NCBI GenBank assembly: GCA_023251075.1
Contig: JAHEZM010000022.1
Span: 1-55,145, forward strand
DNA length: 55,145 nucleotides
Source of the DNA: Flavobacteriales bacterium
GTDB lineage: Bacteria; Bacteroidota; Bacteroidia; Flavobacteriales_C; GCA-002722245
Direction of reading: 5' to 3'
In this document: piece by piece, positions 11,414 through 36,824 of the stretch
Layout: every line of letters starts with the position of its first letter
Numbering within the stretch: position 1 is the first letter of the stretch
The notes under the pieces: generated by a model
The model's input: only the letters and a program-made list of their open reading frames with translations
Database searches by the model: none
What the model was told of the DNA's origin: nothing
Made by a program: the position numbers and the translations under genes

Positions 11414-12509
11414 TCCAAAACATTTTACTATATCTGGCTATCATCCCATCCACCGAATGTTTTTGCTCAATTTGTTTTCTGGCGGCTGCGCCATATTGCT
11501 GTCGTAATGAAGCATTCATGAGTAATTTTTTTAAGGCCTCTGCCAATTGCAGGGAATCAGCAGAAGGAATCAACAATCCACTCACTTCATTTTGTAATAT
11601 ATCAGGAATGGCCCCTACAGAAGTAGCAACAGAAGGAAGTGCGCTAGCCATAGCTTCTAATAGGGCATTAGGCATTCCTTCATTATAAGTTGGAAGAACA
11701 AAAATATCGGCACGTTTTAGAATTTCATTTTTTTCCTCTTCGTAAATCCATCCTTTTAAATCAATCACCTCTTGTAGTTTTTTATCACTAATTAAAATTT
11801 TAATCGCATCGAAATCTTTACCATGTCCACACATCGTTAATGAGAATTTGAAACCTTCCTTTTTTAAAATTTCAACTGCTTCAATCAACTCATATACTCC
11901 CTTATTTCTGTCTACCCAGGCAATAAAAACAATTTCTGGTACAAGATTGTTTTTAGGTGAGGAGGAAATATTGTACTTAGTAATGTCCAAAGCATTATAA
12001 ATCACCTTAAATTTATTTTTATCCAGATGAGGAAATTCTTTTTCAAAAGTATTTTTCCAGCTTTCACTCTGACAAATTACCACATCTGTTTTTGTAAAAA
12101 CTTTTTCAATAAATTTCTTGTTTTTACTTTCAAAATCATTAAGTATTGCACCTGATCGCGGAGCGATAATAACATATTTACCAAAGAATTTAGCAATTAA
12201 AGCCATCAATCCTTTTTCTTTGAAAGAGGCGCCACTACCGGTAAATATTAAAACTTTATCAACTCTTGAAAACAGGATATGAAACACAAATTTTATGATA
12301 CGAAGAACTGCTCTGAAAACTCTAATATGCAGAGGAGTTTTAATATTATTCAATGCAGTGGTATCAAGTTTAATCCACTCTATTCTTTCACTCAATTTAC
12401 TCTCTGTAATGGTTTTTGAAGCGAACATTTGTCCACCCACACCGCCTGTTTTAGTTTTACCCAAAAAGGAGCCTACGAACAGCACTTTTATTTTTGCTTC
12501 TTTACTCAA
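11406..12509 (-). CDS. Glycosyltransferase family 4 protein
   Basis: A 367-aa GT-B fold enzyme, predicted to transfer a nucleotide-activated sugar to the growing repeat unit at the cytoplasmic membrane face. The N-terminal domain contains GSFLGKTKTGGVGGQMFASK; the C-terminal GT4 signature is DIFVLPTYNEGMPNALLEAM followed by ASALPSVATSVGAIPDIL, including the conserved EGMPNALLEAMA nucleotide-sugar-binding segment (near residue 277). Its ATG overlaps the asnB stop by four bases, and a truncated glycosyltransferase gene overlaps its own 3' end. It forms a minus-strand operon with asnB and the acyltransferase. Confidence 0.9.
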   Translation of the reverse strand: MSKEAKIKVLFVGSFLGKTKTGGVGGQMFASKTITESKLSERIEWIKLDTTALNNIKTPLHIRVFRAVLRIIKFVFHILFSRVDKVLIFTGSGASFKEKGLMALIAKFFGKYVIIAPRSGAILNDFESKNKKFIEKVFTKTDVVICQSESWKNTFEKEFPHLDKNKFKVIYNALDITKYNISSSPKNNLVPEIVFIAWVDRNKGVYELIEAVEILKKEGFKFSLTMCGHGKDFDAIKILISDKKLQEVIDLKGWIYEEEKNEILKRADIFVLPTYNEGMPNALLEAMASALPSVATSVGAIPDILQNEVSGLLIPSADSLQLAEALKKLLMNASLRQQYGAAARKQIEQKHSVDGMIARYSKMFWND

Positions 12510-14380
12510 AACTTAACTTTATTTTTTTCAACCCAAAGGGAAAAGTTCATCAACTTCCACAACAAAAATCCATGATCTGCTTTAGAAGATTGATGTTCAC
12601 GAATTAATTTCTCCAGAACAACTTCATCCAATAAATTGAGTTGCTTTATCTTCTGTGTAAAGAGCGTTTCTTTTAAAAAATCTTTCAAAGGTTGTCGCAG
12701 CCAATTTTCATACGGAACACCAAAACCAGTTTTAGGAGCATCCAGAATAGTATCAGGAATTATACCACGCAAAGCTTGTCGCAACAGCCATTTTTTCTCC
12801 CCTTTTTTCACTTTAAATTCTTGCGGCAAGCCCATTACAAATTCTGTAAGATCGTTATCGAGCAAGGGAACTCTCACCTCTATAGATTGCGCCATAGTAG
12901 ATTTATCTACCTTTTCTAAAAAAATGCTTGGTAAAATTATTTGAGTATCGGTGTACAACATTCTTTGCACCAGAGGTAAATGAGCAAAACGCTGATTGCA
13001 TTTTTTGTATTCTAAAAACGGGTCATATTCGCCCAGCTTATTTCTGAAATCTTTTGTTAAAACCTTTAGCGGAGATTTTTTTTGTGATTCAACCGTTAAC
13101 AAAAGTGCCATTCGCATGGCATCATCTTTATGACCTAATGCTGCGGCCATTCTTTCCACTCTGTTTTTGGTAGGATGAGAAAAAGGAAAAACATTGGAAA
13201 TTTTTCCTGCTAAAATTAAGCTTCTGTATTTTTTTAATTCCTCTAAAAGCTGGTATCGTCGGTATCCTGCAAAAATTTCATCTCCTCCGTCACCTTGTAA
13301 AATCACTTTGTATTTACTCTTCACTTTTTCACTTAAAAGATACAGCGGAATATTAGCCGCATCAGAGAAAGGAGCATCATGATGATCAACTAAAGTTGTG
13401 ATAATATCCGGTAAACTTCCTCCTTTGATTTCCAATTCTTCATGATCTGTTCCAAAATGATGGGCTACCGATTTTGCTTTTTGCAGTTCGTTTGATCCTT
13501 TATCAAAATCGAAATGAGCAGCGTACGTTTTTAATTTTCCTTTATAGTGTTTGGAAGCAAATGCAGTAATTGCAGAAGAATCAATTCCACCGCTTAAAAA
13601 AACACCCACCGGCACATCACTTACCAACTGATTTTTTACAGCTTGTTCGAGTAAAAAACGGGTACGCTCAACAGCTTCTTTTTCTGGAATACCGACTGGC
13701 ATTACTTCTTCTGCTTTCCAAAAATAATTCGTTTGCATTTTTCCTTTTTGAAAACAAACAAAATTTCCAGGTGTTAATTGTTTAATTCCACTGAACAAAG
13801 TTTCTTGTCCGATTGGATTTCCATAAAACATAAATTCATGAAAAGCCTGGTAATTAATGGTACGACTATCTGTATCTAAAGCCAGAATACATTTTGGTTC
13901 TGAAGCGAAAACAATATTTTCGTTTTTATATTCGAAGTATAAAGGTTTAACACCAAAACGATCGCGAGCCAAGAAAAGAGATTCATTTTTTTTATCCCAA
14001 ATAGCAATGGCAAAAATTCCATTCAATTTAGCAAATACCTTTGTTCCCCACTGGGCAAAGCCATTCAAAATAACCTCTGTATCAGAATGGGAATTAAAAA
14101 CTCTTCCCTGTTTTTTTAACTCCTCTCTTAAAGCTTGGAAATTATAGATTTCTCCATTAAAAATAATTTGCAATTGTTCTTTTTCCAAAACCATGGGCTG
14201 ATGGCCGGCACTACTTAAATCAATAATACTTAATCGGGCATGACCCAATGCTACTTGTTCATCAACATAAATCCCACTATCATCAGGCCCACGATGATTG
14301 AGCAAATGCACCATTTTACGAATAGCAATTTGCTTTTCGCCAAGGTTCATTTTTATAGTAAATCCTGAAATACCACACAT
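12506..14380 (-). CDS. asnB: Asparagine synthetase B-type amidotransferase (paralogue 1)
   Basis: The 624-aa enzyme has an N-terminal glutaminase domain with nucleophile Cys2 (MCGISGF), HRGPDDSG near residue 30 and an intact NGEIYNF, then an ATP pyrophosphatase synthetase domain with SGGIDSSA near residue 261 and GDGGDEIFAGY near residue 360. It uses glutamine and ATP to amidate a carboxylate through an adenylate. In a polysaccharide operon (acyltransferase before it, GT4 after it) the target may be a uronic acid or an amino acid on the glycan rather than free aspartate; that is inference. All canonical glutamine-binding motifs are present, unlike in paralogues 2 and 3. Confidence 0.9.
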   Translation of the reverse strand: MCGISGFTIKMNLGEKQIAIRKMVHLLNHRGPDDSGIYVDEQVALGHARLSIIDLSSAGHQPMVLEKEQLQIIFNGEIYNFQALREELKKQGRVFNSHSDTEVILNGFAQWGTKVFAKLNGIFAIAIWDKKNESLFLARDRFGVKPLYFEYKNENIVFASEPKCILALDTDSRTINYQAFHEFMFYGNPIGQETLFSGIKQLTPGNFVCFQKGKMQTNYFWKAEEVMPVGIPEKEAVERTRFLLEQAVKNQLVSDVPVGVFLSGGIDSSAITAFASKHYKGKLKTYAAHFDFDKGSNELQKAKSVAHHFGTDHEELEIKGGSLPDIITTLVDHHDAPFSDAANIPLYLLSEKVKSKYKVILQGDGGDEIFAGYRRYQLLEELKKYRSLILAGKISNVFPFSHPTKNRVERMAAALGHKDDAMRMALLLTVESQKKSPLKVLTKDFRNKLGEYDPFLEYKKCNQRFAHLPLVQRMLYTDTQIILPSIFLEKVDKSTMAQSIEVRVPLLDNDLTEFVMGLPQEFKVKKGEKKWLLRQALRGIIPDTILDAPKTGFGVPYENWLRQPLKDFLKETLFTQKIKQLNLLDEVVLEKLIREHQSSKADHGFLLWKLMNFSLWVEKNKVKF

Positions 14381-15669: not shown

Positions 15670-16674
15670 ATGAAATTAAACAATGCTAAAGTTCTGGTAA
15701 TCGGAGGTTCAGGTTTTATTGGAGGTTTTCTCGTAAGAGAATTGCTAAAACATCCAGTAAAAGAAGTGATTATTTACGACAATTTTACTCGCGGTAAATA
15801 CGAAAATATCAACGATTGCCTGGAAGATAAAAGATGTTATGTTTATCCAGTTGGCGGAGATGTGCGCGAAACCGATATTTTAAATGATGCTATGAAAGGG
15901 GTTGATTATGTTTTTCACCTTGCAGCCATGTGGTTATTGCATTGCAAAGATTACCCAAGAACTGCCTTTGATGTAAATATTGCCGGAACCTATAATGTTT
16001 TAGAAGCTTGTGTAAAAAACAATATTAAAAAATTAGTTTATTCTTCTTCTGCTTCAGTTTATGGAGATGCAGTTCAAGTGCCCATGACAGAAGAACACCC
16101 TTTCAACAACAAAAATTTTTATGGTGCTACAAAAATTGCCGGAGAAGCAATGTGTACGGCCATTAATGACAGATTTGGGTTGGAAATTGTTGGCTTAAGA
16201 TACATGAATGTTTATGGTCCGGGGCAAGACCAACATGCGGTGTACAGCGGTGTAGTACCTATCATGTTAAATAAAATTGATGCTAACGAAGCACCCACTA
16301 TCAACGGAGATGGAACACAAGCTTACGATTTTATTTATGTGGAAGATGTTGCCATTGCAAATATTGCTGCATTGGAAAGTGATGTGAAACTTGGATTTTA
16401 CAACGTGGGAACACAAATTCAAACCACTATCAAAGAATTGTGCGATTCTATTTTACGTTTGACGAAATCAGATTTAAAAGTAACTTTCAAACCATATAGC
16501 GCTGATGATGCTCGTCGTTTAGTTCAAAACAGAATTGGTTCAGCGAAAAAAGCAACAGAAGAAATTAATTTTACTTATCAATATTCTTTAGACCAGGGAT
16601 TAAACAAATTAATTCAATGGAGAAAAGAAAAAGGAATTACCAAAGGAATTAAAGAAAAAGCAGGATTAGCATAA
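15670..16674 (+). CDS. NAD-dependent epimerase/dehydratase (extended SDR)
   Basis: A 334-aa sugar-nucleotide enzyme. The Rossmann NAD-binding motif is GGSGFIGG (residues 12-19), and the catalytic YxxxK is YGATK (Tyr151, Lys155), with SSSASVYGD supplying the active-site Ser. The likely substrates are UDP- or GDP-hexoses, which it would epimerise at C4 or dehydrate; sequence alone does not decide between these. It is first in the plus-strand operon 15670-25398, one base before the aminotransferase, and could feed that enzyme a keto-sugar. Confidence 0.88.
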   Translation: MKLNNAKVLVIGGSGFIGGFLVRELLKHPVKEVIIYDNFTRGKYENINDCLEDKRCYVYPVGGDVRETDILNDAMKGVDYVFHLAAMWLLHCKDYPRTAFDVNIAGTYNVLEACVKNNIKKLVYSSSASVYGDAVQVPMTEEHPFNNKNFYGATKIAGEAMCTAINDRFGLEIVGLRYMNVYGPGQDQHAVYSGVVPIMLNKIDANEAPTINGDGTQAYDFIYVEDVAIANIAALESDVKLGFYNVGTQIQTTIKELCDSILRLTKSDLKVTFKPYSADDARRLVQNRIGSAKKATEEINFTYQYSLDQGLNKLIQWRKEKGITKGIKEKAGLA

Positions 16675-16675
16675 T

Positions 16676-17815
16676 ATGGAAAAAAGAAATATATACATCT
16701 CACAGCCTGTATTAGGTGAAGAGGAATGGCAAGCTTGTAAAGAACCATTGTTTAGTGGTTGGGTAACACAGGGTCCGAAAGTAAAAGCTTTTGAACAGCG
16801 CTTTGCTCAAATTCATGGGGTTAAACATGCTTTCGCGGTGACTAGCTGCACAACAGGATTGCACTTGGCTTTGGAAGCTTTGGGTATTGGTGCGGGCGAC
16901 GATGTATTGGTTCCTGCCTTCACCTGGGTAGCTACAGCCAATGCGGTTTTGTACGTAGGTGCAAATCCAATTTTAGTAGATATTGAAATCCCTTCTTTCA
17001 ATATTTCCATTGAAGATTTTAAAAGAAAATTAACACCCAAAACAAAAGCAGTTATACCTGTGCATCTTTTTGGGTTGTGTGCAGATATTGATGCCATTAA
17101 AAAAATTGCTCCAGGAATTAAAATTGTGGAAGATGCAGCTTGTGCAGCGGGTTCAATGTACAACGGAAAATATGCAGGTAACTTAGGTGATATCGCAAGT
17201 TTCTCTTTTCATCCGCGCAAATCTATCACCACCGGTGAAGGAGGTATGGTTACTACCAATGACGATGCTATTGCAGAAAAAATGGATAAGTTGAGAAATC
17301 ATGGTGCTGAAATTTCAGAAGAACAAAGACATCGTGGTGCCAAACCTTATATCCTTCCTGATTTCAACATGATGGGATTCAATTTTAGAATGACCGATTT
17401 ACAAGGTGCTGTGGGTTTAGTACAAATTGAAAAACTACAAGGCTTTATCGAAGAAAGAGAAAAATGGGCGCAGTACTATACTGATGAATTAAAAGACCTA
17501 AAGTGGTTCCAAACACCTGTAATTCCTAAAGGATACAAGCACGGATGGCAATCTTTTGCTTGTTTCATTGATGAAAAAATATCACCATTATCGAGAAATG
17601 AGATCATGGAAAAATTACAAGAAAAAGGTATCAGTACTCGTCCGGGAACACATGCCGTTCACATGCTTAATTTCTATAAAGATAAATACGGATTTAAAGC
17701 GCAAGATTTTCCAAATGCTCAATTGGCAAATGATCAATCCATTGCTATTCCATTACACAACAGAATGGTGAAAGAAGATTACGATTATGTAATTGCAGCT
17801 TTGAAATCATTTTAA
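16676..17815 (+). CDS. DegT/DnrJ/EryC1/StrS family sugar aminotransferase
   Basis: A 379-aa PLP-dependent enzyme that transfers an amino group, usually from glutamate, to a keto-sugar nucleotide. The PLP lysine is Lys182 in SFHPRKSITTGEGG, and VEDAACAAGS (near residue 151) holds the Asp that contacts the PLP ring nitrogen. The N-terminal WVTQGPKVKAFEQRFA and the C-terminal RPGTHAVHM are family landmarks. It follows the epimerase by one base and precedes AsnB paralogue 2 by 13 bases. Its product would be the amino sugar acted on by the downstream formyltransferase or amidotransferase; this order is inference. Confidence 0.9.
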   Translation: MEKRNIYISQPVLGEEEWQACKEPLFSGWVTQGPKVKAFEQRFAQIHGVKHAFAVTSCTTGLHLALEALGIGAGDDVLVPAFTWVATANAVLYVGANPILVDIEIPSFNISIEDFKRKLTPKTKAVIPVHLFGLCADIDAIKKIAPGIKIVEDAACAAGSMYNGKYAGNLGDIASFSFHPRKSITTGEGGMVTTNDDAIAEKMDKLRNHGAEISEEQRHRGAKPYILPDFNMMGFNFRMTDLQGAVGLVQIEKLQGFIEEREKWAQYYTDELKDLKWFQTPVIPKGYKHGWQSFACFIDEKISPLSRNEIMEKLQEKGISTRPGTHAVHMLNFYKDKYGFKAQDFPNAQLANDQSIAIPLHNRMVKEDYDYVIAALKSF

Positions 17816-17828
17816 GCTTTTAATAAAT

Positions 17829-19724
17829 ATGTGCGGAATAACGGGAATATATAACTTAAACAGAAAGCCGGTAAGCTCTAGTTTACTAAAGGTGATGACT
17901 GATGTTATTGCGCATCGTGGACCAGATGGAGAAGGTGTTTTCACTGAAGACGGAATTGGTTTGGGTCATCGCCGGTTGGCCATTTTAGATGTGAATCCAA
18001 GATCTAATCAACCCATGCCTTCTAAAAACAGCGATTGGATTATTGTTTTCAATGGTTGTATTTACAATTTCCAGAAATTGAAATTGGAATTGCGCACAAA
18101 AGGACATGAATTTCATACTACTTCTGATACCGAAGTAATCGCAGAAGGATTGGCTAATGAAGGAGTAAAATTTGTAGAGAAACTAAATGGTATGTTTGCT
18201 ATTGCAGCTTATCAGAAATCTACAAAAACATTGTATTTATGCAGAGACCGATATGGCGTAAAGCCCTTGTATTACTGGTTCAATGGAAAAACATTAGTAT
18301 TCGGTTCAGAAATAAAATCGATCATTAAACATCCTGAAATTAAAACAGAATTGAATTTAGAAGCATTGAATGAATACTTCACTTTTCAAAATCTTTTTCG
18401 CTACAATACTTTCTTCAAAGGCGTTAAAATGGTTCCGCCTGCCAACACTTTAAAAATAGATTTAAACACCACCGAAATAATTCACAACAGTTGGTGGGAT
18501 TATAATTTCAACGAACAAGACGAAAGTCTCTCTTTTGAAGAAGCGAAGGAAGAAACCAAAAGATTAATGGAACAAGCAGTTGCCAATCAAATGGTATCTG
18601 ATGTTCCGGTGGGAAGCTACTTATCAGGAGGAATGGATTCTGGCTCTATGACTTCTTTGGCTTCGCGACACGTAAATAGATTAACCACTTTCACTTGTGG
18701 CTTCGACATGTCGGAAGTGCTAGGCTACGAAGCCAATTACGACGAACGAAGAGATGCCGAATTAATGGCCAATCATTTTAAAACAGAACATTACGAACAG
18801 GTAATGAATGCTGGAGATATACGATGGTCGTTACCGCGATTGGTATATCATTTAGAAGATCCAAAGGTAGGAATGAGTTACCCCAATTATTACATTAGCA
18901 GATTGGCCTCTAAATTTGTGAAAGTATGTTTGCAGGGAACAGGCGGTGATGAATTGTTTGGTGGTTATCCGTGGAGATATTATCGCGTTTTTCGTTCTCT
19001 TAATCAAAAAGAATTTTTCGATCAATATTATGATTTTTGGCAAAGACTAGTTCCCCAAGATGAAAAGAAAATTTTGTTTCAGGAAAATGTGATGAAGCAA
19101 ATGGATTTCAACGTACCAAGAAAATCCTTTGAAGGTGTTTTTACCTTCAATGAAAAGTTGCGCTACGATACACCGGAAGCACATATCAACAACTCTTTGT
19201 ATTTTGAAATCAAAACATTTTTACCGGGATTGTTATTGGTAGGAGATAAATTATCTATGGCCAATGGCTTGGAAGAAAGGTTTCCTTTTCTAGATAATGA
19301 TTTGGTAGATTTTGCGCAGAAAATTCCAGTGAAATACAAACTGGGAAATTTGGAAAACATGCTAAAAATCGACGAGAACGATTACCGTGATAAAAGAAAG
19401 GTATATACCGAATTTGATGATGGAAAAAATATTTTGCGAAAAGCAATGTTGGATTTTCTTCCGGAAAAAATAATTAACCGAAAAAAACAAGGCTTCTCTG
19501 CTCCCGACGAATCGTGGTACAGAGGCGAAAATGCTGCCTATGTGAAAGAACTTCTTTTGGATAAAAATACGATCTCCAAAGAATTCATCAATCCTGAATA
19601 CGTGAAAAAAATTATTCACGAACACATCGATCAAAAAATCAATCACCGCCTATTAATATGGTCATTCATGAATTTTGAATGGTGGTGCCGAATTTTCCTG
19701 AATAATGAAAAAATTGAAAACTAA
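17829..19724 (+). CDS. asnB: Asparagine synthetase B-like amidotransferase (paralogue 2) with Glu-to-Cys change
   Basis: A 631-aa two-domain glutamine amidotransferase: Cys2 and MCGITGIYN, AHRGPDGEG, then a synthetase domain with SGGMDSGSMTS near residue 265 and GTGGDELFGGYPWRYY. Two segments are unusual. The glutamine-site loop reads FNGCIYNF instead of NGEIYN, and the substrate region reads EDPKVGMSYPNYYISRLASK where true asparagine synthetases have DEPFADPSAIP. The Cys variant is, from memory, also found in N-acetylglutaminylglutamine amidotransferases. An acceptor other than aspartate, such as a uronic acid or acyl-sugar, is therefore likely. Its 3' end overlaps the next gene by 20 bases. 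Confidence 0.85.
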   Translation: MCGITGIYNLNRKPVSSSLLKVMTDVIAHRGPDGEGVFTEDGIGLGHRRLAILDVNPRSNQPMPSKNSDWIIVFNGCIYNFQKLKLELRTKGHEFHTTSDTEVIAEGLANEGVKFVEKLNGMFAIAAYQKSTKTLYLCRDRYGVKPLYYWFNGKTLVFGSEIKSIIKHPEIKTELNLEALNEYFTFQNLFRYNTFFKGVKMVPPANTLKIDLNTTEIIHNSWWDYNFNEQDESLSFEEAKEETKRLMEQAVANQMVSDVPVGSYLSGGMDSGSMTSLASRHVNRLTTFTCGFDMSEVLGYEANYDERRDAELMANHFKTEHYEQVMNAGDIRWSLPRLVYHLEDPKVGMSYPNYYISRLASKFVKVCLQGTGGDELFGGYPWRYYRVFRSLNQKEFFDQYYDFWQRLVPQDEKKILFQENVMKQMDFNVPRKSFEGVFTFNEKLRYDTPEAHINNSLYFEIKTFLPGLLLVGDKLSMANGLEERFPFLDNDLVDFAQKIPVKYKLGNLENMLKIDENDYRDKRKVYTEFDDGKNILRKAMLDFLPEKIINRKKQGFSAPDESWYRGENAAYVKELLLDKNTISKEFINPEYVKKIIHEHIDQKINHRLLIWSFMNFEWWCRIFLNNEKIEN

Positions 19725-20712
19725 TTATTCTCGTGAAATAAAACTCATCAAAAAGAGCATCAAAAAACTTGATGTCGATCTTAGCGGACTTACAGTTTTA
19801 ACCGAAGTGGGCAGCGGAAGTTATGTAATCAGTCCAATCATTCCGTTATTGGCCGGGGCAAAAAAAGTATATGCGTGGACTGCTGATTCACGCTATGGAA
19901 AAGCTGCAGATATTATTGAAGAATGTTTGGAAATAGCGAAAATTTTAGGCGTAGAAAATCAAATAGAATTTTCCCCGAATTTCAAAAATCCTGAACAGGT
20001 AAAACAAGCAGATATTATTACCAATTCAGGATTTTTGCGACCCTTAAATGAAATCATTTTAAAAGATATAAATCCTCGTTGTGTAATTCCACTGATGTAT
20101 GAAAAATGGGAATTGCGCGATAGTGATATCGATATCGCTTATTGCCAACAAAAAAATATAAAAGTTGCAGGGACTTGGGAAAATCATCCATCCATAGGTG
20201 TTTTTACGGGTGTTGGTCACTTAGCCATTAAACTTTGTTTAGAAGCCGGAATGGAAGTTTACCAAAATAATATTTTCATTTGGTCGGATGATCATTTTGG
20301 AGAAGAAACAGAAACTGCCTTTAAAAAATTTGGTGCAAATAAAGTTTATCATTCTACCAAAAAAGAAGAATTTTACACTGTTTTAGAATCACTGGATATT
20401 TTATACCTCTGTGATTACGATGAAAAAAAATCTTATTTTTCAGAAGGAGGGATTTTCGATTTAAAAAAAATAAAAGAAATCAATTCGTCTTTAACCATTG
20501 TACATTTATATGGCGATGTAGATCATGAATTACTACAAAAAAATGAAATCAAAATTTATCCTGCTAAGAGAGGTCATGCTAGTTTAATGACCGAAACACT
20601 GGCTTATCTTGGTCCGAATTTGATTGTAAATTTGCAAGTAGCAGGATATAAAGTAGCACAAAGTATGTATCATGGAAAGGCATCGGATTTAGCTCAACCC
20701 ATAACTTATTAA
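19705..20712 (+). CDS. Unrecognised two-domain Rossmann-like protein of the sugar-modification operon
   Basis: I do not recognise this 335-aa protein. Residues about 29-92 resemble a Rossmann or SAM-type nucleotide-binding unit: LTVLTEVGSGSYVISPIIPL, with a glycine-rich loop after the first strand, then AGAKKVYAWTADSRYG with an acidic residue after strand two. A second alpha/beta unit starts near residue 170 with GTWENHPSIGVFTGVGHLAI. The overall look is of hydroxyacid-dehydrogenase-like or adenosylhomocysteinase-like folds, but the usual catalytic Arg-Glu-His set is not obvious. It is coupled to AsnB paralogue 2 (20-base overlap) and lies two bases before the formyltransferase, so it very probably acts in the same sugar pathway. 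Confidence 0.7.
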   Translation: MKKLKTNYSREIKLIKKSIKKLDVDLSGLTVLTEVGSGSYVISPIIPLLAGAKKVYAWTADSRYGKAADIIEECLEIAKILGVENQIEFSPNFKNPEQVKQADIITNSGFLRPLNEIILKDINPRCVIPLMYEKWELRDSDIDIAYCQQKNIKVAGTWENHPSIGVFTGVGHLAIKLCLEAGMEVYQNNIFIWSDDHFGEETETAFKKFGANKVYHSTKKEEFYTVLESLDILYLCDYDEKKSYFSEGGIFDLKKIKEINSSLTIVHLYGDVDHELLQKNEIKIYPAKRGHASLMTETLAYLGPNLIVNLQVAGYKVAQSMYHGKASDLAQPITY

Positions 20713-20714
20713 TT

Positions 20715-21650
20715 ATGAAAGTTGGTATCATAGGAAGAGGACAATGGACATACGATTCGGCAAAATTATTATTGCAGAAAGGTTATGAAATACCTGTGAT
20801 TATTACTGCCAAAGCTCCTGAAGAATATACTGTGAAGGAAAAAGATTTTGAAAATTTAGCAAAGGAAATAGGCGCAAAATATTTATGCTCTGCCAAAATA
20901 AAATCACAAGAAGCACTGGATTTATTAGATAGTGTTGGTGAAATGGATATTTGTGTAAGCGTAAATTATTCGGGAGTAATTCCTGATGAGGTCATTCATA
21001 AATTCAAAATTGGAATTTTAAATGCACATGGAGGCGATTTACCTAAATACAGAGGAAATGCTTGCCAGGCCTGGGCTATTATTAACGGCGAAGAAAAAAT
21101 TGGAATCTGTATTCATAAAATGATTGGCGGTGAATTGGATTCGGGAGATATCATAGGAAAAAAATATATGCCTCTTACTATTGACACACGCCTGAAAGAA
21201 GTTTACGATTGGTTTGATAAAGTCATTCCACCCATGTTCATGGAAGCGGTAGAGGAACTGAAAAAAAATCGGAATTATATTACGGAAAAGCAATCGAAAA
21301 ACCCGGAAGATGCCTTACGATGCTACCCACGAATGCCGGAAGATGGAGAAATTGACTGGAGCAAAAGCAACTTTGATATTGTTCGGTTGGTGAATGCTTC
21401 TTCAGAACCTTATCCCGGGGCTTTTTGTTACCTCGACGGAAAAAAACTAACGGTGTGGAGAGCAAAAATTCAGGAGGATAACGAAATATATGTAGGAATT
21501 AAAGGTCAGGTTTCCCGCATAGATATGGAAAAAGGAGAAATAGATGTATTGTGCGGCAACGGAAAAATAACTATTTCAGAAATTGAAGTGGAAGGAAACA
21601 GAACAAAACCAACTACTTTTATTAAATCAATTAGAACCAGACTCAAATAA
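20715..21650 (+). CDS. Formyltransferase family protein (sugar N-formyltransferase)
   Basis: A 311-aa protein of the methionyl-tRNA formyltransferase superfamily. NAHGGDLPKYRGN (near residue 100) contains the catalytic Asn and His, and GGELDSGDIIG (near residue 142) contains the catalytic Asp; the C-terminal domain includes the usual RCYPRMPEDGEIDW. Such enzymes use N10-formyltetrahydrofolate to formylate a primary amine. In this operon, after an aminotransferase, the substrate is most likely an amino sugar nucleotide rather than Met-tRNA. It sits two bases after the unrecognised Rossmann-like gene and 12 bases before the WbpG-type amidotransferase. Confidence 0.88.
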   Translation: MKVGIIGRGQWTYDSAKLLLQKGYEIPVIITAKAPEEYTVKEKDFENLAKEIGAKYLCSAKIKSQEALDLLDSVGEMDICVSVNYSGVIPDEVIHKFKIGILNAHGGDLPKYRGNACQAWAIINGEEKIGICIHKMIGGELDSGDIIGKKYMPLTIDTRLKEVYDWFDKVIPPMFMEAVEELKKNRNYITEKQSKNPEDALRCYPRMPEDGEIDWSKSNFDIVRLVNASSEPYPGAFCYLDGKKLTVWRAKIQEDNEIYVGIKGQVSRIDMEKGEIDVLCGNGKITISEIEVEGNRTKPTTFIKSIRTRLK

Positions 21651-21662
21651 ATTGCATTAATA

Positions 21663-22829
21663 ATGAAGAATGAAATTATACAACCGGGAGAGGGAGGGTA
21701 CAAAATATGTTCGCGCTGTATTTATGATACTCGCGTACCGGGAATAACCTTCAACACAAAAGGAGAATGCAGTTATTGTGAAATGTCGGATAGTTTGAAA
21801 ACAGAATACGGATCCGGTGAAGAAAAAGGAGAACAAGCCTGGTTAAAAATTGTAGAGGAAATAAAAGCAGCAGGTAAAGGAAAAAAATACGACTGTGTAA
21901 TTGGCGTAAGTGGCGGAGTAGATTCTTCATATATGGTGCATATGGCTATAGAACTAGGTCTTCGCCCCTTAGCGGTACATTATGATAACACGTGGAACAG
22001 TGCTATTGCTACAGAAAATATTAGAAAAATATTGAATAAACTCAACGTTGATTTATACACACATGTTACCGACAATAAAGAATCTGATGATATTTTTCGT
22101 GCTTTTTTTAAGGCAGGTGTCCCCGAATTAGATGCTGCTACCGATTTAGCTTTTGCAGAAACGCACTATCGCGCTGCCGCAAAATATGGGATTAAATATG
22201 TTTTGGAAGGACATTCCTTTATTGAAGAAGGTGTTTCTCCACTATCTACCATGTACTTCGATGGCAAGTATATTAAATCCATTCATAAAAAATTTGGTAA
22301 TCAGAAAATGAAAACCTATCCGCTCATGAACTTCTTTAATTTCATGAAATGGATATTGTTTTATAGAATCAGAAAAATACGCCCTTACTGGTTAATCAAA
22401 TATTCTAAAGAAGAGGCCAAAAAATTATTAGAAGAAAAGTACGACTGGAAATATTATGGCGGACATCATTTAGAAAACCGTATGTCGGCATTCATGCACA
22501 GCTATTACCTTCCACACCGTTTTAAAATCGACCAGAGAAACAATAGTCTTAGTGCTTTAGTACGCAACGGAGCAATGAAAAAAGAAGATGCTCTGAACAT
22601 TTACAATTCTAAACCGCATATCGAAGATCAACTTTTAGAATACTTCAAAAAAAGAATCAACCTGAGCGAAGAAGATTTTGAAAAATACATGAATCAATCT
22701 CTTCATTCTTTCAGAGAATTTCCAACCTACAAAAGAAGATTTGAAAGATTGAAACCCTTTTTCTATTTGATGTATAAAGCCAATTTAGTTCCTAAAAGTT
22801 TTTACATTAAATACACCAACAAACTATGA
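21663..22829 (+). CDS. wbpG: N-acetyl sugar amidotransferase (WbpG-like)
   Basis: A 388-aa PP-loop enzyme of the WbpG family, which converts an acyl-amido group on a sugar to an amidino group using ATP and ammonia. A zinc-ribbon-like cluster CSRC...CSYC occupies residues 16-39, and the pyrophosphatase loop SGGVDSS is at residues 83-89. The GHSFIEEG and FMHSYYLPHRF segments are characteristic of the family. Ammonia should come from the HisH/HisF-like pair immediately downstream; the hisH start overlaps its stop by four bases. The best-known product type is the 2-acetamidino sugar of Pseudomonas O-antigens; here an N-formyl group is a possible alternative substrate. Confidence 0.88.
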   Translation: MKNEIIQPGEGGYKICSRCIYDTRVPGITFNTKGECSYCEMSDSLKTEYGSGEEKGEQAWLKIVEEIKAAGKGKKYDCVIGVSGGVDSSYMVHMAIELGLRPLAVHYDNTWNSAIATENIRKILNKLNVDLYTHVTDNKESDDIFRAFFKAGVPELDAATDLAFAETHYRAAAKYGIKYVLEGHSFIEEGVSPLSTMYFDGKYIKSIHKKFGNQKMKTYPLMNFFNFMKWILFYRIRKIRPYWLIKYSKEEAKKLLEEKYDWKYYGGHHLENRMSAFMHSYYLPHRFKIDQRNNSLSALVRNGAMKKEDALNIYNSKPHIEDQLLEYFKKRINLSEEDFEKYMNQSLHSFREFPTYKRRFERLKPFFYLMYKANLVPKSFYIKYTNKL

Positions 22830-23440
22830 TAACCATTGTTGATTATGGAATGGGCAATTTGGGTTCCATTCACAACATGTTCAAAAAAATTGGCGCTGAA
22901 ACGGAAATCACATCTGATCTGGACAAAATAAGCAAAGCCAAAAAAATTCTTTTGCCAGGTGTAGGTGCCTTTGATGCGGCAATGAAAATTATTGCAGGTA
23001 GTGAATTGATTCATGTATTGAATGATAAAGCATTGAAAGAAAAAATTCCTGTTTTGGGAATATGTTTGGGAATGCAACTACTTACGAATCACTCTGATGA
23101 AGGTGAATTAAAAGGATTGGGGTGGATAGATGCAGAAACATTAAAATTCAAACCTGAAAATTATACTGAAAAAATACGGGTTCCACATATGGGATGGAAT
23201 CTCGTTAAAATTGAAAAGGAAACCCTACTCACTAAAAATTTCTTTCCCGAAAACAGATTCTATTTTGTACACTCCTACTATGTAAAATGCAAGCATGAAA
23301 AAAATAAATTAATGACTACCCATCACGGATTAGATTTTGATAGTGCAATAATAAACGACAACATTTTTGGCGCGCAATTTCATCCTGAAAAAAGTCATAA
23401 ATTCGGTATGCAATTGTTTAAAAACTTCAGTAGCTTATAA
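22826..23440 (+). CDS. hisH: HisH-type glutaminase serving the sugar amidotransferase
   Basis: A 204-aa class I glutamine amidotransferase. The nucleophile is Cys80 in GICLGMQLL, with His186 and Glu188 in QFHPEKS completing the triad; the start MITIVDYGMGNLGSIHNMFK is typical of HisH. It is coupled to the WbpG-like gene (ATGA overlap) and lies two bases before the hisF-like gene. No other his genes are nearby, so its role is almost certainly ammonia supply for sugar amidination, as for the HisH2/HisF2 pair in Pseudomonas O-antigen loci, and not histidine synthesis. Confidence 0.9.
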   Translation: MITIVDYGMGNLGSIHNMFKKIGAETEITSDLDKISKAKKILLPGVGAFDAAMKIIAGSELIHVLNDKALKEKIPVLGICLGMQLLTNHSDEGELKGLGWIDAETLKFKPENYTEKIRVPHMGWNLVKIEKETLLTKNFFPENRFYFVHSYYVKCKHEKNKLMTTHHGLDFDSAIINDNIFGAQFHPEKSHKFGMQLFKNFSSL

Positions 23441-23442
23441 TT

Positions 23443-24207
23443 ATGTTGCAAACACGAGTTATACCTTGTTTATTACTCAATGAAGATAGTTTAGTAAAAA
23501 CTGTCAAATTCGATAACGCAGCCTACATTGGTGATCCAATAAATACAGTAAGAATATTTAATGAGCTGGAAGTAGATGAATTGATTTTTTTAGATATCAC
23601 TGCCAGCAAAGAAAACAGGAAAGTTAATTTTCAAATTCTGGAGGAAATTGCCAATGAATGTTTCATGCCCTTGGCCTATGGAGGGGGAATAAAATCGGTA
23701 GAGGATATCAAAAAAATTCTTCAAATCGGATTGGAAAAAGTGGCCATCAACTCGGAAGCTTTTACACACCCCGAATTAATCACCCAGGCTGCAGCACAAT
23801 TTGGAAGTCAAAGTATTATTGGCGCTATCGACATAAAGAAAAACTTCTGGGGAAAATACGAAGTATACTCACATAGCGGAACGCAAAAACAAAAAGCAGA
23901 TCCTGTGGAGTGGGCTAAACAACTGGCAAAATTAGGTGTTGGGGAAATTTTACTTACCGCTATTCATAAAGAAGGAACATGGAGTGGGTTTGATATTGAC
24001 CTCATCGAACAAATTACTAAAGCGGTGAATGTTCCGGTAATTGTAAATGGTGGCGCACAAAACATCAATTCAATTGGTGAAGCAGTACATAAAGGGGGCG
24101 CTTCAGCAGTGGCCTTGGGAAGCATGGTAGTTTTTCAGGCAAAAGGCATGGGGGTTTTAGTAAATTTTCCCGATAGAAAAGAATTAGAAAAAGAATTAAA
24201 TAAATAA
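23443..24207 (+). CDS. hisF: HisF-like ammonia-channel subunit lacking catalytic Asp11
   Basis: A 254-aa TIM-barrel homologue of imidazole glycerol phosphate synthase subunit HisF. Family landmarks include GGGIKSVEDI, KVAINSEA and VNGGAQNI. The first catalytic aspartate (Asp11 of Thermotoga HisF, in CLDV) is replaced: the sequence reads IPCLLLNED with Leu at position 11. The second aspartate is kept in GAIDIKKN. The barrel probably works only as docking partner and ammonia tunnel for the HisH-like glutaminase and the WbpG-like enzyme. Confidence 0.88.
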   Translation: MLQTRVIPCLLLNEDSLVKTVKFDNAAYIGDPINTVRIFNELEVDELIFLDITASKENRKVNFQILEEIANECFMPLAYGGGIKSVEDIKKILQIGLEKVAINSEAFTHPELITQAAAQFGSQSIIGAIDIKKNFWGKYEVYSHSGTQKQKADPVEWAKQLAKLGVGEILLTAIHKEGTWSGFDIDLIEQITKAVNVPVIVNGGAQNINSIGEAVHKGGASAVALGSMVVFQAKGMGVLVNFPDRKELEKELNK

Positions 24208-24210
24208 TCC

Positions 24211-25398
24211 ATGAAGGTTGCATTAATAGGCAATATGAACAACAACAATTTTTCGCTTTTACGCTATTTGAGAGATGCGGGAATAGATGCTTATTTGCTA
24301 CTTTACACGAATGAACTGGAACACTTTACTCCTTTAAGTGATACATGGTTTTTCGAAAAACATAAGCCTTACATCATACAAACCAATCTTGAGAATTCGG
24401 AACGAGGAGTATTATTCACTTCAAAAAAAAATATTGAAAATAACTTTAAAAATTACAACGTCTTTATAGGCTCGGGATTGACTCCTGCCTATTTTGCCAA
24501 GATGGGAAAAACACTTGATATTTATTACCCTTACGGTATTGGAATAGAATACTACGGTAATAAAATAAACTACCTCAGAATTGCAAATCTATTTAAAATT
24601 CCTGCAAGAATTTTACAGAAAAGAGGCTTGAAAAAAACAAAAAAATGTATCATTTCAAATGTGATGGAGCATGAAACTGTTGAATCGTACAAAAAACTTT
24701 CTATCACTCCCATAGGACTTAATATTCCTATGGTATATAATCTTGAAATACTGGAAGAAAAAGACATTCCTGAAAAATTAAAAAAAATAATCACTGAATT
24801 TAAACAGTACGAAAAAATTGTTTTTTCACACGTAACGCATCGATGGGATTTTGAAGATTCGGGATCTATCAATCATAAATTATACAACATCAACCGTAGG
24901 AACGATAAACTGATTCGGGGTTTCGCTATATATCAAAAAAACAACCCAAAGAAAAGCTTATTGGTGCTATCGGAATATGGTCCTGACGCACCTAAAAGCA
25001 AAGCTTTAATAGAAGAATTAAATATTCAAAAATCTGTTTTATGGTTGCCTATATTAGGAAGAAAAGAATTGATGCTATTAATACGCCACGCCCATATTTG
25101 TGTAGGTGAATTAGGAGAAGCAGGAACCTGGGGAGGAAGTACATGGGAATTTTTGGCTATGGGAAAACCCGTAATCAATCGATATAAAATGGATGAAGGA
25201 AAATACAAAGAAATGATGGGAATACCCTTTCCTCCCTTAATCAATATTGAAAATGAAAACAATATTGCCGATGTACTTCTGGAACATGATTTAAACCTTC
25301 CGAAATATCAAAAAATAGGAGAAGAATCTCTTCTATGGTTTAACCATTACAATGGTGCATCGCTCATACCTGAATTTAAAAAATTAATCACTGAATAA
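24211..25398 (+). CDS. Glycosyltransferase, GT-B fold
   Basis: A 395-aa protein with the N-terminus MKVALIGNMNNNNFSLLRYL and the C-terminal nucleotide-sugar segment VGELGEAGTWGGSTWEFLAM followed by GKPVI, which corresponds to the GT4/GT1 donor-binding region although EX7E is not canonical. It probably adds the modified sugar made by the operon to the lipid-linked repeat unit. It starts three bases after the hisF stop and is the last gene of the block; a new promoter and another gene set begin 115 bases downstream. The precise family is uncertain. Confidence 0.75.
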   Translation: MKVALIGNMNNNNFSLLRYLRDAGIDAYLLLYTNELEHFTPLSDTWFFEKHKPYIIQTNLENSERGVLFTSKKNIENNFKNYNVFIGSGLTPAYFAKMGKTLDIYYPYGIGIEYYGNKINYLRIANLFKIPARILQKRGLKKTKKCIISNVMEHETVESYKKLSITPIGLNIPMVYNLEILEEKDIPEKLKKIITEFKQYEKIVFSHVTHRWDFEDSGSINHKLYNINRRNDKLIRGFAIYQKNNPKKSLLVLSEYGPDAPKSKALIEELNIQKSVLWLPILGRKELMLLIRHAHICVGELGEAGTWGGSTWEFLAMGKPVINRYKMDEGKYKEMMGIPFPPLINIENENNIADVLLEHDLNLPKYQKIGEESLLWFNHYNGASLIPEFKKLITE

Positions 25399-25512: not shown

Positions 25513-26352
25513 ATGAAGACGAATACTGATTCCATTACTTATAACGACTCCGTTAATTCTGGGGAACGATTTGAATTCGGGAAGAACTGGAAATCTTTTC
25601 TTAAAACATTGAACGACGAAAGAATTGAGGTAGCTATTCAATCATTAAAGGATATGCTTGAAGTGGATTCATTAGAGGGGAAATCATTTTTAGATATCGG
25701 CTCGGGAAGTGGTTTATTTAGTTTAGCGGCAAAAAAAATGGGAGCAAAAGTTCATTCCTTAGATTTTGATCCCAATTCAGTAGGATGTACAAAAGAATTA
25801 AAAAATCGATTTTTTAAAAATGATCCCAACTGGACCATTGAAGAAGGATCAGCTTTAGACACAAAATATATAAGCTCTTTAGGTTTCTTTGATATAGTTT
25901 ATTCCTGGGGAGTTTTACACCACACGGGAAACATGTATTTGGCTTTAGACAATGCAGATCTTCCTGTTAAAAACGGAGGACTCCTCTTCATCGCTATATA
26001 CAACGATCAAGGTAAAAGATCTAAATTGTGGACACGCATAAAAAAAACATATTGCAGCGGTTTTTTAGGAAAAATGTTCATTCTCTCGATCTTCCTTCCT
26101 TATTATCTAACCCGAGGATTAGTAGAAGATTTATTAAGATTTAGAAATCCTTATAAACGTTATAGAGATTATAAAAAACAGAGGGGAATGCAAATGATTT
26201 ATGATTGGTATGACTGGCTGGGGGGTTTACCTTTCGAAGTAGCCAGTGTTAAACAACTTTTTCATTTTTATCAAAAAAAGAAATATATCCTTCAAAATAT
26301 AATAACCGGACCGGGAATGAACCAATTGGTATTTAAAAAGAATATGAATTAA
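25513..26352 (+). CDS. Class I SAM-dependent methyltransferase
   Basis: A 279-aa Rossmann methyltransferase. Motif I is FLDIGSGSGLF (near residue 60), followed by an acidic ribose-binding residue in HSLDFDPNSV; motif IV resembles YSWGVLHHTG (near residue 135). The C-terminal third is basic and rich in Tyr and Lys, with no clear membrane helix beyond a hydrophobic stretch FILSIFLPYYLTRGL. With the sulfotransferase 13 bases downstream it forms a glycan-decoration pair; O-methylation of a sugar is the simplest guess. The acceptor cannot be read from the sequence. Confidence 0.85.
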   Translation: MKTNTDSITYNDSVNSGERFEFGKNWKSFLKTLNDERIEVAIQSLKDMLEVDSLEGKSFLDIGSGSGLFSLAAKKMGAKVHSLDFDPNSVGCTKELKNRFFKNDPNWTIEEGSALDTKYISSLGFFDIVYSWGVLHHTGNMYLALDNADLPVKNGGLLFIAIYNDQGKRSKLWTRIKKTYCSGFLGKMFILSIFLPYYLTRGLVEDLLRFRNPYKRYRDYKKQRGMQMIYDWYDWLGGLPFEVASVKQLFHFYQKKKYILQNIITGPGMNQLVFKKNMN

Positions 26353-26365
26353 GCTCAAGAAATTT

Positions 26366-27454
26366 ATGATCGATATACAAACCCCTTTAAAACAACCTAT
26401 TTTTATTTCAGGACTTCCTAAATCAGGAACTTCAATGTTTAAAACATTACTGGATAGCCATCCTGAAATATTTATGTTTCCTGCTAATGAATTTGAGCTT
26501 TTTTATTATTCTCATCACAAGTCGATGATGTTAGGAAAATTAGCTTATGAAAGGGATTTGAACAAATTGAAAGAACTCATTATTACCAATGAATTTATTA
26601 CCCGTTTAAATAATCCAGAAAGTGAAGCTTTAAAATCATACAAAAGAGATACCATAAATATTCCTGCATTTCAAGAAGAAGTACGCGCACAAAATCCGAA
26701 AAATTATTCGGAATTAACGGCGCTGATTTATAAAGCAATGGCAAAAAATTCATCTTATTTCGACGGAAATATTGATCAGGTGAGATATGCTTCAAAATGT
26801 GTGTTAACCAATGAATTTTTTCCTGAACTTTTATCCTGGTTTCCCGATTTAAAGTTTGTTGAAGTATTGAGAAATCCATACGGACATTTTAATGCAGTAC
26901 GCAACTCTGCCAGAAAAGGAGCAAAATACGAAGGAGAAAAAATAACGTCTAAACATAAATATCCTGTTTTAGGGGAAATCATCAGATGTATGAATCAATC
27001 CTATTACAACATGGAAAAATGGAAAGAATTATATCCTAACAATTTTTATGTTATTGTATATGACAGAATTTTAGAAGATCCCGAAAAAGAATTAAATAAA
27101 CTTTCTGAGTTTATAGGTGTGAAGTTTGATCCATCTATGCTTAACCCTACTGTTGGTGGCGAAAAATTTGGTGGAAACAGTTGGTATGTGGAGAATTATG
27201 ATAAAATAGATAAACGTCCGCTTACCCATTGGAAAGGAAAAATATCACCTCTTGAAATTCGATTAGTGAATCATTTTTTTGAAGAAATAATTAAAAAATA
27301 TGGTTTTGAATATTTAGAATCGAATGCTCCTTTATGGAAAAAAATGGGCTCTTCGGAAGATTTAAGAACCTATATAGGCAATAGAATTCTTTTTAAAGCA
27401 AAAGGTTGGTTCGGATATCCCTCTGATGAAGTTCAAAATTTTAAAAAAGGTTAG
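26366..27454 (+). CDS. Sulfotransferase family protein
   Basis: A 362-aa P-loop-like sulfotransferase that would move sulfate from PAPS to a hydroxyl. The 5'-phosphosulfate-binding loop is ISGLPKSGTSMF (near residues 14-25), and the 3'-phosphate-binding region is VLRNPYGHFNAVRNSARKG (near residue 170), as in Sulfotransfer_3 proteins. YDRILEDPEKELNKLSEFIG is a further family landmark. Sulfation would make the glycan acidic. The stop overlaps the convergent flippase gene by four bases. Confidence 0.85.
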   Translation: MIDIQTPLKQPIFISGLPKSGTSMFKTLLDSHPEIFMFPANEFELFYYSHHKSMMLGKLAYERDLNKLKELIITNEFITRLNNPESEALKSYKRDTINIPAFQEEVRAQNPKNYSELTALIYKAMAKNSSYFDGNIDQVRYASKCVLTNEFFPELLSWFPDLKFVEVLRNPYGHFNAVRNSARKGAKYEGEKITSKHKYPVLGEIIRCMNQSYYNMEKWKELYPNNFYVIVYDRILEDPEKELNKLSEFIGVKFDPSMLNPTVGGEKFGGNSWYVENYDKIDKRPLTHWKGKISPLEIRLVNHFFEEIIKKYGFEYLESNAPLWKKMGSSEDLRTYIGNRILFKAKGWFGYPSDEVQNFKKG

Positions 27455-28947: not shown

Positions 28948-30849
28948 CTAGTTCATCCAGCGATTATACCACTTCATAAAAACCAAAATAAACCACAATT
29001 GTTCTAAATTATTTTGATCTTCCTTCAATAATTTTTTTACTAGAGAATCAACTTTATCGCTATTAAACAAATTTGTTTTAGAAATTGATTCTTTATTTAA
29101 TTCACTTTTAATATCATTAATTAAATCATTTTTAAGCCACTGAAATAGAGGAATTCCAAATCCTTTTTTCGGACGGTCATACAAATCCTTCGGAAGGTAT
29201 TCCGATAAAATATCTTTCAAAATATACTTATCGATACCCTCTTTAAATTTGTAATTAATCGGAATTTGTGCGGCCAATTCAATAATGTGATGATCCAGCA
29301 TTGGCTCTCTTCCTTCCAAAGCAACAAACATCGTTGCTCTATCTACTTTGGTCATAATATCACCCGGCAGATAAGTAAGTGTATCAAAAAGCATCATCTG
29401 ATTGGCAAGGTCCATGCTTTTCATTTTCTCGTTCACTAGAAAACTATGATCGAATAAAGAGTGTAATCCTAATTCATTTAATGTTGTGTTATTGTAATAT
29501 TTCAAATAGGAGTTGTAGGCCAATACATCATTTCCAACGCGTAACATTTCACCCGCTTTCACACTTCCATCGCTTATTTTCCGAAATAACTTACTATAAG
29601 GTGCAACATTTTTAAATAAAGGCTGGGCCCAGCCTGAGGCCATTAATGCAGCGGTTTTTTGCAGCGTATTATTTTGTAGTTTATGGAAAAAAGAAGGGAA
29701 CTTTTTATAACGTGTATAACCGAAAAACAATTCATCTCCTCCATCTGCTGAAAGAGAAACTTTTACTTTTTGTTTTGCCACTTTAGCCACCATAATGGTT
29801 GGTATTGCAGAAGAATCGGCAAAAGGCTCATCGTAAATTTCCGGCAATTGATGCAATAATTCTTGCGCATCCTTGGGTTTACAAATATATTCTGTGTGAT
29901 CAGTTCCTAAATAGTTAGCGGTTGCCTTAGCGTGCTTCGATTCATCAAAACCGTTTTCATCAAATCCAATGGTAAATGTTTTTACTTTGCCTTCGGTATG
30001 GTTTTGCAAAATACTGGTCACCAATGAAGAATCAATACCACCGCTCAAAAACATACCCACAGGCACATCAGCTACCATACGTAATTTAAATGCTTCAATA
30101 AGTTCTTGATGTAAAGTATTTTTTACGCTAATGTAATCGGCATCTATTTTCGGTTTTTCGTAAAAATCCTGAACATTCCAATAAATAGTTTCTGTTACTT
30201 CACCACCGTTGTTTATCTCCACAAAACTTCCTGGTTTTACTTTGAATGTATTTTCAAAAATACTGTAAGGAGCGGTGATATAGCCATGTTGAAAATACAG
30301 TGAAACAGCTTTTAATGACAATTCTTTTTTAAACTGTGGATGCTCATGAAAGCTTTTAAGTTCTGATGCAAAAAGAAATAAATTTTGGTGATGATAATAA
30401 TATAAGGGTTTAACACCTACTCTATCGCGACACAATAACAAATTCTTCGTTTCGTGATTCCAAATGGCAAAGGCAAACATTCCTCTAAAACGCTTCACCA
30501 CCTCTTTTCCCCAATGATAAAACCCTTTAAGAATAACTTCGGAATCAGAATCGGAAGTAAACGCATACCCTTCTTTTTCTAAATCATTTTTAATCTCTTT
30601 AAAATTATAAACCTCCCCATTGTACACCATGGAAAGATGTTTAAAATGCATCGGTTGATTTCCCAATTCTGATAAATCGAGAATAGATAAACGACGATGA
30701 CCTAAAGCAATACCATTACCAGTATCGATGAATTCTCCTTTGGCATCGGGACCTCCAGGAATCAAAGTTTCACGCATTTTAGCCAACACATTATCCAAGG
30801 GATATTGTGCCTTAAAATTAAAATCGCGTATACCGGTAATTCTACACAT
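28948..30849 (-). CDS. asnB: Asparagine synthetase B-like amidotransferase (paralogue 3) with degenerate glutaminase site
   Basis: A 633-aa protein with both AsnB domains. The synthetase domain looks intact: SGGIDSSLVTS, DEPFADSSAIPT and SADGGDELFFGY. The glutaminase domain keeps Cys2 and NGEVYNF, but the N-terminus is MCRITG instead of MCGITG, and the usual HRGPD reads IPGGPD, losing the arginine that binds the glutamine carboxylate in AsnB. The enzyme may use free ammonia or work poorly with glutamine. It lies in the assembly operon between a GT4 and the flippase; a glycan carboxylate is a plausible target. Confidence 0.85.
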   Translation of the reverse strand: MCRITGIRDFNFKAQYPLDNVLAKMRETLIPGGPDAKGEFIDTGNGIALGHRRLSILDLSELGNQPMHFKHLSMVYNGEVYNFKEIKNDLEKEGYAFTSDSDSEVILKGFYHWGKEVVKRFRGMFAFAIWNHETKNLLLCRDRVGVKPLYYYHHQNLFLFASELKSFHEHPQFKKELSLKAVSLYFQHGYITAPYSIFENTFKVKPGSFVEINNGGEVTETIYWNVQDFYEKPKIDADYISVKNTLHQELIEAFKLRMVADVPVGMFLSGGIDSSLVTSILQNHTEGKVKTFTIGFDENGFDESKHAKATANYLGTDHTEYICKPKDAQELLHQLPEIYDEPFADSSAIPTIMVAKVAKQKVKVSLSADGGDELFFGYTRYKKFPSFFHKLQNNTLQKTAALMASGWAQPLFKNVAPYSKLFRKISDGSVKAGEMLRVGNDVLAYNSYLKYYNNTTLNELGLHSLFDHSFLVNEKMKSMDLANQMMLFDTLTYLPGDIMTKVDRATMFVALEGREPMLDHHIIELAAQIPINYKFKEGIDKYILKDILSEYLPKDLYDRPKKGFGIPLFQWLKNDLINDIKSELNKESISKTNLFNSDKVDSLVKKLLKEDQNNLEQLWFILVFMKWYNRWMN

Positions 30850-36699: not shown

Positions 36700-36803
36700 G
36701 AAAAATATTCTAAATGAGCACTTTCGCAGCCGAAATTGGTAATTTAAACACCTGTTTTTCTGAAATATTTAATAATGAATTTCTTACATTTCACTTTCTT
36801 GGT

Positions 36804-36811
36804 TACTTTAG
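36804..36811 (+). promoter_or_regulatory. Possible -7 box of the heptose operon
   Basis: TACTTTAG matches TAnnTTTG at seven of eight positions and lies 13 bases before ATG 36825. It supports that start over the in-frame ATG at 36714. Confidence 0.35.
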
Positions 36812-36824
36812 TGAAAAAGTGTTT

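Follow-up and report, generated by a model that had tools for sequence, protein, structure and literature searches.

A nine-gene polysaccharide operon of a Flavobacteriales bacterium as a possible route to an N-formimidoyl uronamide sugar

We analysed a stretch of 55,145 nucleotides from a Flavobacteriales bacterium (contig JAHEZM010000022.1, positions 1 to 55,145; hereafter the window), in which nine genes at 15670-25398 form one operon. They lie in a polysaccharide locus of the Wzx/Wzy type that contains three AsnB paralogues. Our results suggest, with a probability of roughly 0.5, that this operon builds a UDP-activated uronamide whose N-formyl group becomes an N-formimidoyl (formamidino) group. 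The N-formyl group would be the most likely substrate of the operon's amidine synthetase, WbpG, because WbpG and the acyl slot that precedes it, between AsnB2 and WbpG, change together. If this is true, formimidoyl would be new among sugar decorations, and its formation would be a specificity not seen before in the NASAT family of amidotransferases. The genes of the operon are as follows.

15670..16674, + strand: SDR, an extended short-chain dehydrogenase of the sugar epimerase/dehydratase kind (PF01370)
16676..17815, + strand: DegT/ArnB-like pyridoxal-phosphate aminotransferase (PF01041)
17829..19724, + strand: AsnB2, a glutamine-dependent amidotransferase (TIGR01536 above cut-off, Cys2)
19705..20712, + strand: R, like S-adenosylhomocysteine hydrolase (SAHH) and D-2-hydroxyacid dehydrogenase (no Pfam family; fold match)
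20715..21650, + strand: FT, an ArnA-like sugar N-formyltransferase (PF00551 and PF02911)
21663..22829, + strand: WbpG/NASAT, a PP-loop N-acyl sugar amidotransferase, or amidine synthetase (TIGR03573, WbuX, above cut-off)
22826..23440, + strand: HisH-type glutaminase (TIGR01855 above cut-off)
23443..24207, + strand: HisF2/AglZ/WbuZ-type partner, here HisF (NF038364, AglZ/HisF2 acetamidino protein, 362.9 bits against a cut-off of 310)
24211..25398, + strand: glycosyltransferase (weak PF00534; 3-base gap from HisF)

The intergenic gaps from SDR to the glycosyltransferase are, in order, 1, 13, -20, 2, 12, -4, 2 and 3 bases, and the next gene lies 114 bases beyond the glycosyltransferase, which likely transfers the finished sugar. 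An earlier note on this DNA had described the six genes from AsnB2 to HisF as one operon. All six open reading frames are present and intact, with their family signatures and with gaps of -20, +2, +12, -4 and +2, and they do belong to a single operon; that operon is longer, with SDR and DegT on its 5' side and the glycosyltransferase on its 3' side. Nor do the six genes always go together; the real unit is apparently SDR-DegT-AsnB2 plus the acyl slot plus WbpG/HisH/HisF. Parts of the operon stay together in other genomes far more than expected by chance, but the exact order AsnB2-R-FT-WbpG-HisH-HisF was seen in the window alone.

The acyl slot is best seen by comparison with a sister species (G304), in which the locus spans two contigs, C77 and C76, with an exact overlap of 149 bases at their ends. 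There, one hexapeptide transferase of 168 amino acids takes the place of R and FT. Protein identity to the window is 95% for SDR, 95% for DegT, 90-94% for AsnB2, 85% for HisH and 87% for HisF, whereas WbpG, replaced or diverged, reaches 61%, and the glycosyltransferase 66%. Similarity at the DNA level is lost where AsnB2 ends and returns within WbpG. Identity at third codon positions is 56-60% over the SDR-DegT-AsnB2 block (58% for AsnB2), 55% for HisH, 48% for HisF and 43% for WbpG, the last being the level of GT_A, AT3, Wzx and Wzy, genes that have clearly been replaced or have diverged fast. Since the acyltransferase and WbpG diverge while HisH and HisF are kept, the sugar-facing part of the amidine machine would have changed along with the acyltransferase, and the subunits that supply ammonia would not. 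A hexapeptide acyltransferase also stands directly before or beside WbpG (49-63% identity) in six further loci (L066, L068, L070-L073). To judge by their family, these hexapeptide enzymes presumably transfer acetyl, to nitrogen. By its gene families, the position between AsnB2 and WbpG is a slot for an acyltransferase.

In the window this slot contains FT, which has both formyltransferase domains (Formyl_trans_N PF00551, 1e-19; Formyl_trans_C PF02911, 1e-17), the catalytic Asn-His-Asp, the motifs NAHGG and LDSGD, and ArnA as its best solved relative. A formyltransferase occupies the same slot on plasmids of Agrobacterium sp. MA01 and RAC06, in the order tviB-[WbpB]-WbpD-WbpE-SDR-DegT-AsnB-FT-WbpG (WbpB is not among the genes listed for RAC06), followed by HisH-HisF2 downstream of WbpG after three intervening genes. 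The identity of this formyltransferase to FT of the window and to the close kin of FT is only 25-30%, against 51-55% for Bacteroidota relatives. The plasmid loci have FT without R, and R is evidently dispensable in Agrobacterium. In a tree of WbpG proteins, the one from Agrobacterium pairs with that of the NAT-linked locus L066 and not with the window WbpG; a single clade of FT-linked WbpGs was rejected (0% of bootstrap trees). The Agrobacterium locus looks like a second, independent case of a formyltransferase being taken into this slot.

WbpG contains the PP-loop SGGVDS and the tetracysteine zinc motif CxxC...CxxC, and the best fold match of its model is Legionella NASAT (8wex, E 2e-13). HisH has its Cys and HPE and is predicted to supply ammonia to WbpG, with HisF as the ammonia channel. 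Residue 188 of WbpG sits in the conserved motif GHSFxTEG and, in the model, by the ATP site after the fourth strand of the PP-loop fold, the strand order being as described for Legionella NASAT (PMC10607449); from this topology it may touch the acyl group. Nearly all of 36 non-redundant WbpG relatives have Thr or Ser at this position (one has Ala, one Asn), and Glu occurs only in the window and Agrobacterium proteins, that is, in the two FT-linked, non-sister lineages, where it is apparently convergent. In the wide set it is the sole residue private to this pair. The pattern GHSFxEEG has one further match in 247 genomes, in a protein that is not a WbpG and lies among unrelated genes, and gave no third case. 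We tentatively propose, at somewhat under even odds, that WbpG was retuned from N-acetyl to N-formyl through changes including Thr/Ser188 to Glu, that this arose twice, and that the product is a 4-formimidoylamino-2,3-diacetamido hexuronamide. The two sister operons, whose differences fall exactly on the acyl slot and WbpG, make the acyl specificity of the NASAT family directly testable, with residue 188 as the candidate.

The sugar itself is suggested by the three genes ahead of the slot. The closest solved sequences to SDR are UDP-GlcNAc/Glc 4-epimerase-type enzymes, and those to DegT are ArnB and perosamine synthase; SDR holds the same position in the sister species (95% identity) and in Agrobacterium (55%). 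AsnB2 has both the N-terminal glutaminase Cys2 and the Asn_synthase domain. Across other genomes of the class the identities are 72-81% for SDR, 63-68% for DegT and 67-73% for AsnB2, and AsnB2 relatives sit after DegT, usually after SDR-DegT. All three genes occur in L002, L024, L025, L031, L068 and L084; in L003, SDR and AsnB2 are present but the DegT is a different one, and the stretches read of L033 and L083 contain DegT and AsnB2. These data define SDR-DegT-AsnB2 as a conserved module. Homologues of WbpB, WbpD and WbpE precede it in L003 and in Agrobacterium sp. MA01, and a TviB-type UDP-GlcNAc 6-dehydrogenase gene does so in Agrobacterium as well. In the genome of the window another contig (G000:C20) has grouped genes for a WbpE-like aminotransferase, WbpD-like and WbpB-like proteins and a TviB-like dehydrogenase, the UDP-GlcNAc3NAcA set, and this set (WbpA/B/D/E) is likewise complete in the sister species. 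In the simplest reading the module would convert UDP-GlcNAc3NAcA into a 4-amino uronamide, and the operon's sugar is best read as a 2,3-diacetamido-4-amino hexuronamide. From the linkage to the UDP-GlcNAc3NAcA genes we propose that AsnB2 amidates the sugar carboxylate, which supports the earlier assignment of AsnB2 as an amidotransferase of the uronamide type.

The pathway would start from UDP-GlcNAc3NAcA made by the WbpA/B/D/E set on the other contig. SDR would oxidize C4 of the nucleotide-sugar uronate (or epimerize it), DegT would aminate C4, and AsnB2 would turn the C6 carboxylate into the amide. FT would then formylate the new 4-amine, with R acting at or near this stage, and WbpG, with ammonia from HisH/HisF, would use ATP to activate the N-acyl oxygen and replace it with NH, giving an amidine and, as product, an N-formimidoyl (formamidino) sugar. 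The operon would in this way make one UDP-activated, nitrogen-rich uronamide and start its transfer. We infer the substrate, the step order, the ring positions and the product; gene content, families, the module, the slot swap and Glu188 are read from the sequence.

This interpretation should be taken with some caution, since several of our observations weigh against it. The joint change of slot and WbpG in the sister species could have come about as a single recombination block, with no functional coupling between the two. GT1, Wzx and Wzy, too, diverge from the sister species as strongly as WbpG does. At least one radical private site of the kind seen at residue 188 is shared by 16 of 630 protein pairs, so that the chance level is about 2.5% for a pair named in advance; column 188 was chosen after looking at the alignment, and one shared residue is modest evidence. 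The FT-linked pair is not unusual in its number of private residues: it has 8, and other pairs of the close clade range from 1 to 19. Locus L083 contains both a close FT and a distant WbpG, several genes apart, and there residue 188 is Thr. The Agrobacterium slot formyltransferase (L086:7874-8827) has Gly at the expected catalytic Asn. Finally, WbpG could act on the 2- or 3-N-acetyl group, as in the FucNAm and ManNAc3NAmA pathways, and leave the formyl group unchanged.

This last point is the main rival explanation, to which we give about one chance in three: on the same sugar the 4-formamido group would stay, and WbpG-HisH-HisF would turn a 2- or 3-acetamido group into acetamidino. To our knowledge, the characterised WbpG/WbuX systems act on acetyl groups, which speaks for it. 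So do the description of NASAT (PMC10607449) and the UDP-GlcNAc3NAcA genes, present in this genome and linked to the operon's counterpart in Agrobacterium. It leaves unexplained why WbpG, but not HisH or HisF, changes with the slot enzyme, and why Glu188 is common to both FT-linked lineages. We consider it improbable that two sugars are involved, with SDR-DegT-AsnB2-R-FT making an N-formyl uronamide, WbpG-HisH-HisF acting on another sugar of the repeat, and adjacency reflecting co-transcription only. R-FT pairs without WbpG do occur (L003, L004, L006), FT and WbpG are unlinked in L083, and in Francisella the formyl sugar and the uronamides are different residues (PMC10924466); however, the operon has no other sugar-precursor genes, and the acyl slot lies directly before WbpG in several lineages. 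The earlier note had named unlinked FT and WbpG genes in homologous loci as an observation that would tell against a formimidoyl product, and part of the family, the three R-FT loci just listed, shows it.

It is very unlikely that FT instead formylates an amino acid or a tRNA-linked amine, to give for instance N-formyl-alanyl sugars, and that the acyl donor is prepared by R. Loci with R often carry FemAB-like or other acyltransferases beside it, and N-formyl-L-alanyl sugars are known from Vibrio anguillarum O2 (PMC10059132). The operon has no FemAB gene, however, FT is closest to the sugar formyltransferase ArnA, and the Agrobacterium FT occurs without R. On balance the observation behind the earlier note is sound, and its proposal of an N-formyl to N-formimidoyl conversion is strengthened, though unproven, by the co-change of slot and WbpG, the FT-WbpG pair in Agrobacterium and the apparently convergent Glu188; the product would still be an inference.

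Amidine groups give bacterial surface sugars positive charge. Acetimidoyl, formyl and carboxamide groups are all known from bacterial sugars (PMC10609480, PMC3210612), and in the table of N-modifications of the first, acetimidoyl is the only amidine and the string "formimid" does not occur in the text available. We found no glycan carrying a formimidoyl or formamidino sugar in the literature covered, which excludes most subscription journals. The operon shares three protein families, their motifs and fold with WbpG-HisH2-HisF2 and WbuX-WbuY-WbuZ (P. aeruginosa O5, the FucNAm loci, Legionella NASAT 8wex), but differs from these acetamidino systems in that WbpG directly follows a formyltransferase and not an acetyltransferase, and has Glu188 and not Thr/Ser. 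The Francisella wbt O-antigen locus (Qui4NFm and GalNAcAN; WbtI, WbtJ) has in common a 4-aminotransferase, a formyltransferase and a uronamide in the repeat; its formylated sugar is 6-deoxy, the uronamide is on another residue, and the part of the paper at hand reports no amidine (PMC10924466). The ArnA/ArnB pathway to 4-amino-4-deoxy-arabinose provides the closest solved relatives of FT and DegT, but the window SDR is not of the ArnA-decarboxylase kind, and AsnB2 and WbpG are added.

The earlier note did not recognise the combination of genes as a pathway. At the level of a gene list it has a precedent: the available part of a report on a novel Bordetella bronchiseptica wbm O-antigen locus lists formyltransferase, aminotransferase, methyltransferase, asparagine synthase and sugar amidotransferase genes (PMC12243275), so that formyltransferase, asparagine synthase and sugar amidotransferase have already been seen together. 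That part proposes no pathway and reports no R gene, and the likeness of the wbm loci rests on matching annotation, not on gene order or sequence. The WbmS-like family recurs beside R and FT in related loci.

R belongs to no Pfam family, and neither Pfam nor the PDB gives a significant match to its sequence. Its AlphaFold2 model (pLDDT 93) finds 3d4o in Foldseek (E 6e-10) and superimposes on the SAHH structure 3x2e (VIA, Z 17.6, root-mean-square deviation 4.2, 296 aligned), giving it the overall two-domain fold of the superfamily of SAHH, D-2-hydroxyacid dehydrogenase and dipicolinate synthase A. It differs from these by the absent Gly-rich NAD loop: GxGxxG is missing, SDDHFG stands in its place, and GGxxTG occurs only in the subfamily L031-L034. 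A 2-hydroxyacid dehydrogenase was considered, but this loop is degenerate. T33, E34, D103, N107, R112, P113, R138, D143, E159 and K316 are invariant. Phylum-wide searches found R in the window only; a profile search across the class found it in 14 of 395 genomes, and it also occurs on plasmids of a planctomycete and a Paracoccus. Two phage contigs carry it next to a deacetylase-like gene, which in L008 was confirmed as a member of the WbmS-like family. In bacterial loci its common neighbour is an acyl-type transferase: L003, L004, L006 and L033 have FT there, L024 and L030 have a hexapeptide acyltransferase, and a FemAB-like protein is found in L025 and perhaps L026, the latter by position and length only, without a Pfam match. 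R is not confined to the pathway of this operon. It represents an unnamed family with a link to the acylation of sugars, in Bacteroidota, Planctomycetota, Alphaproteobacteria and phages, and our best guess, held with low confidence, is that it prepares or presents the sugar for non-acetyl N-acylation.

In the phage contigs from IMG/VR (L008:9256-10900 and L009:1725-3511), SDR, deacetylase-like and R genes lie directly 5' of a DUF4055 gene; FemAB and DegT genes are found farther upstream in L008, and the sugar-modification genes are inside the phage structural region. In L031 (5960-11091) the AsnB2 module is followed by FemAB-like, NeuD-like, methyltransferase, WbmS-like and R genes. L032 and L034 have gene sizes and order as in the annotated L031, a recurrent second kind of acyl-slot cassette.

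The three AsnB-family genes of the polysaccharide locus in the window (12506-14380, 17829-19724 and 28948-30849) have a mutual identity of only about 32%. At 36714-39099 a GHMP kinase, a SIS-domain isomerase and a nucleotidyltransferase stand in a row, the gene make-up of the GDP-D-glycero-D-manno-heptose pathway. Methyltransferase and sulfotransferase genes at 25513-27454, 3' of the operon, may add a further decoration to the glycan; in the sister species the Wzx gene comes directly after GT1, without these two genes.

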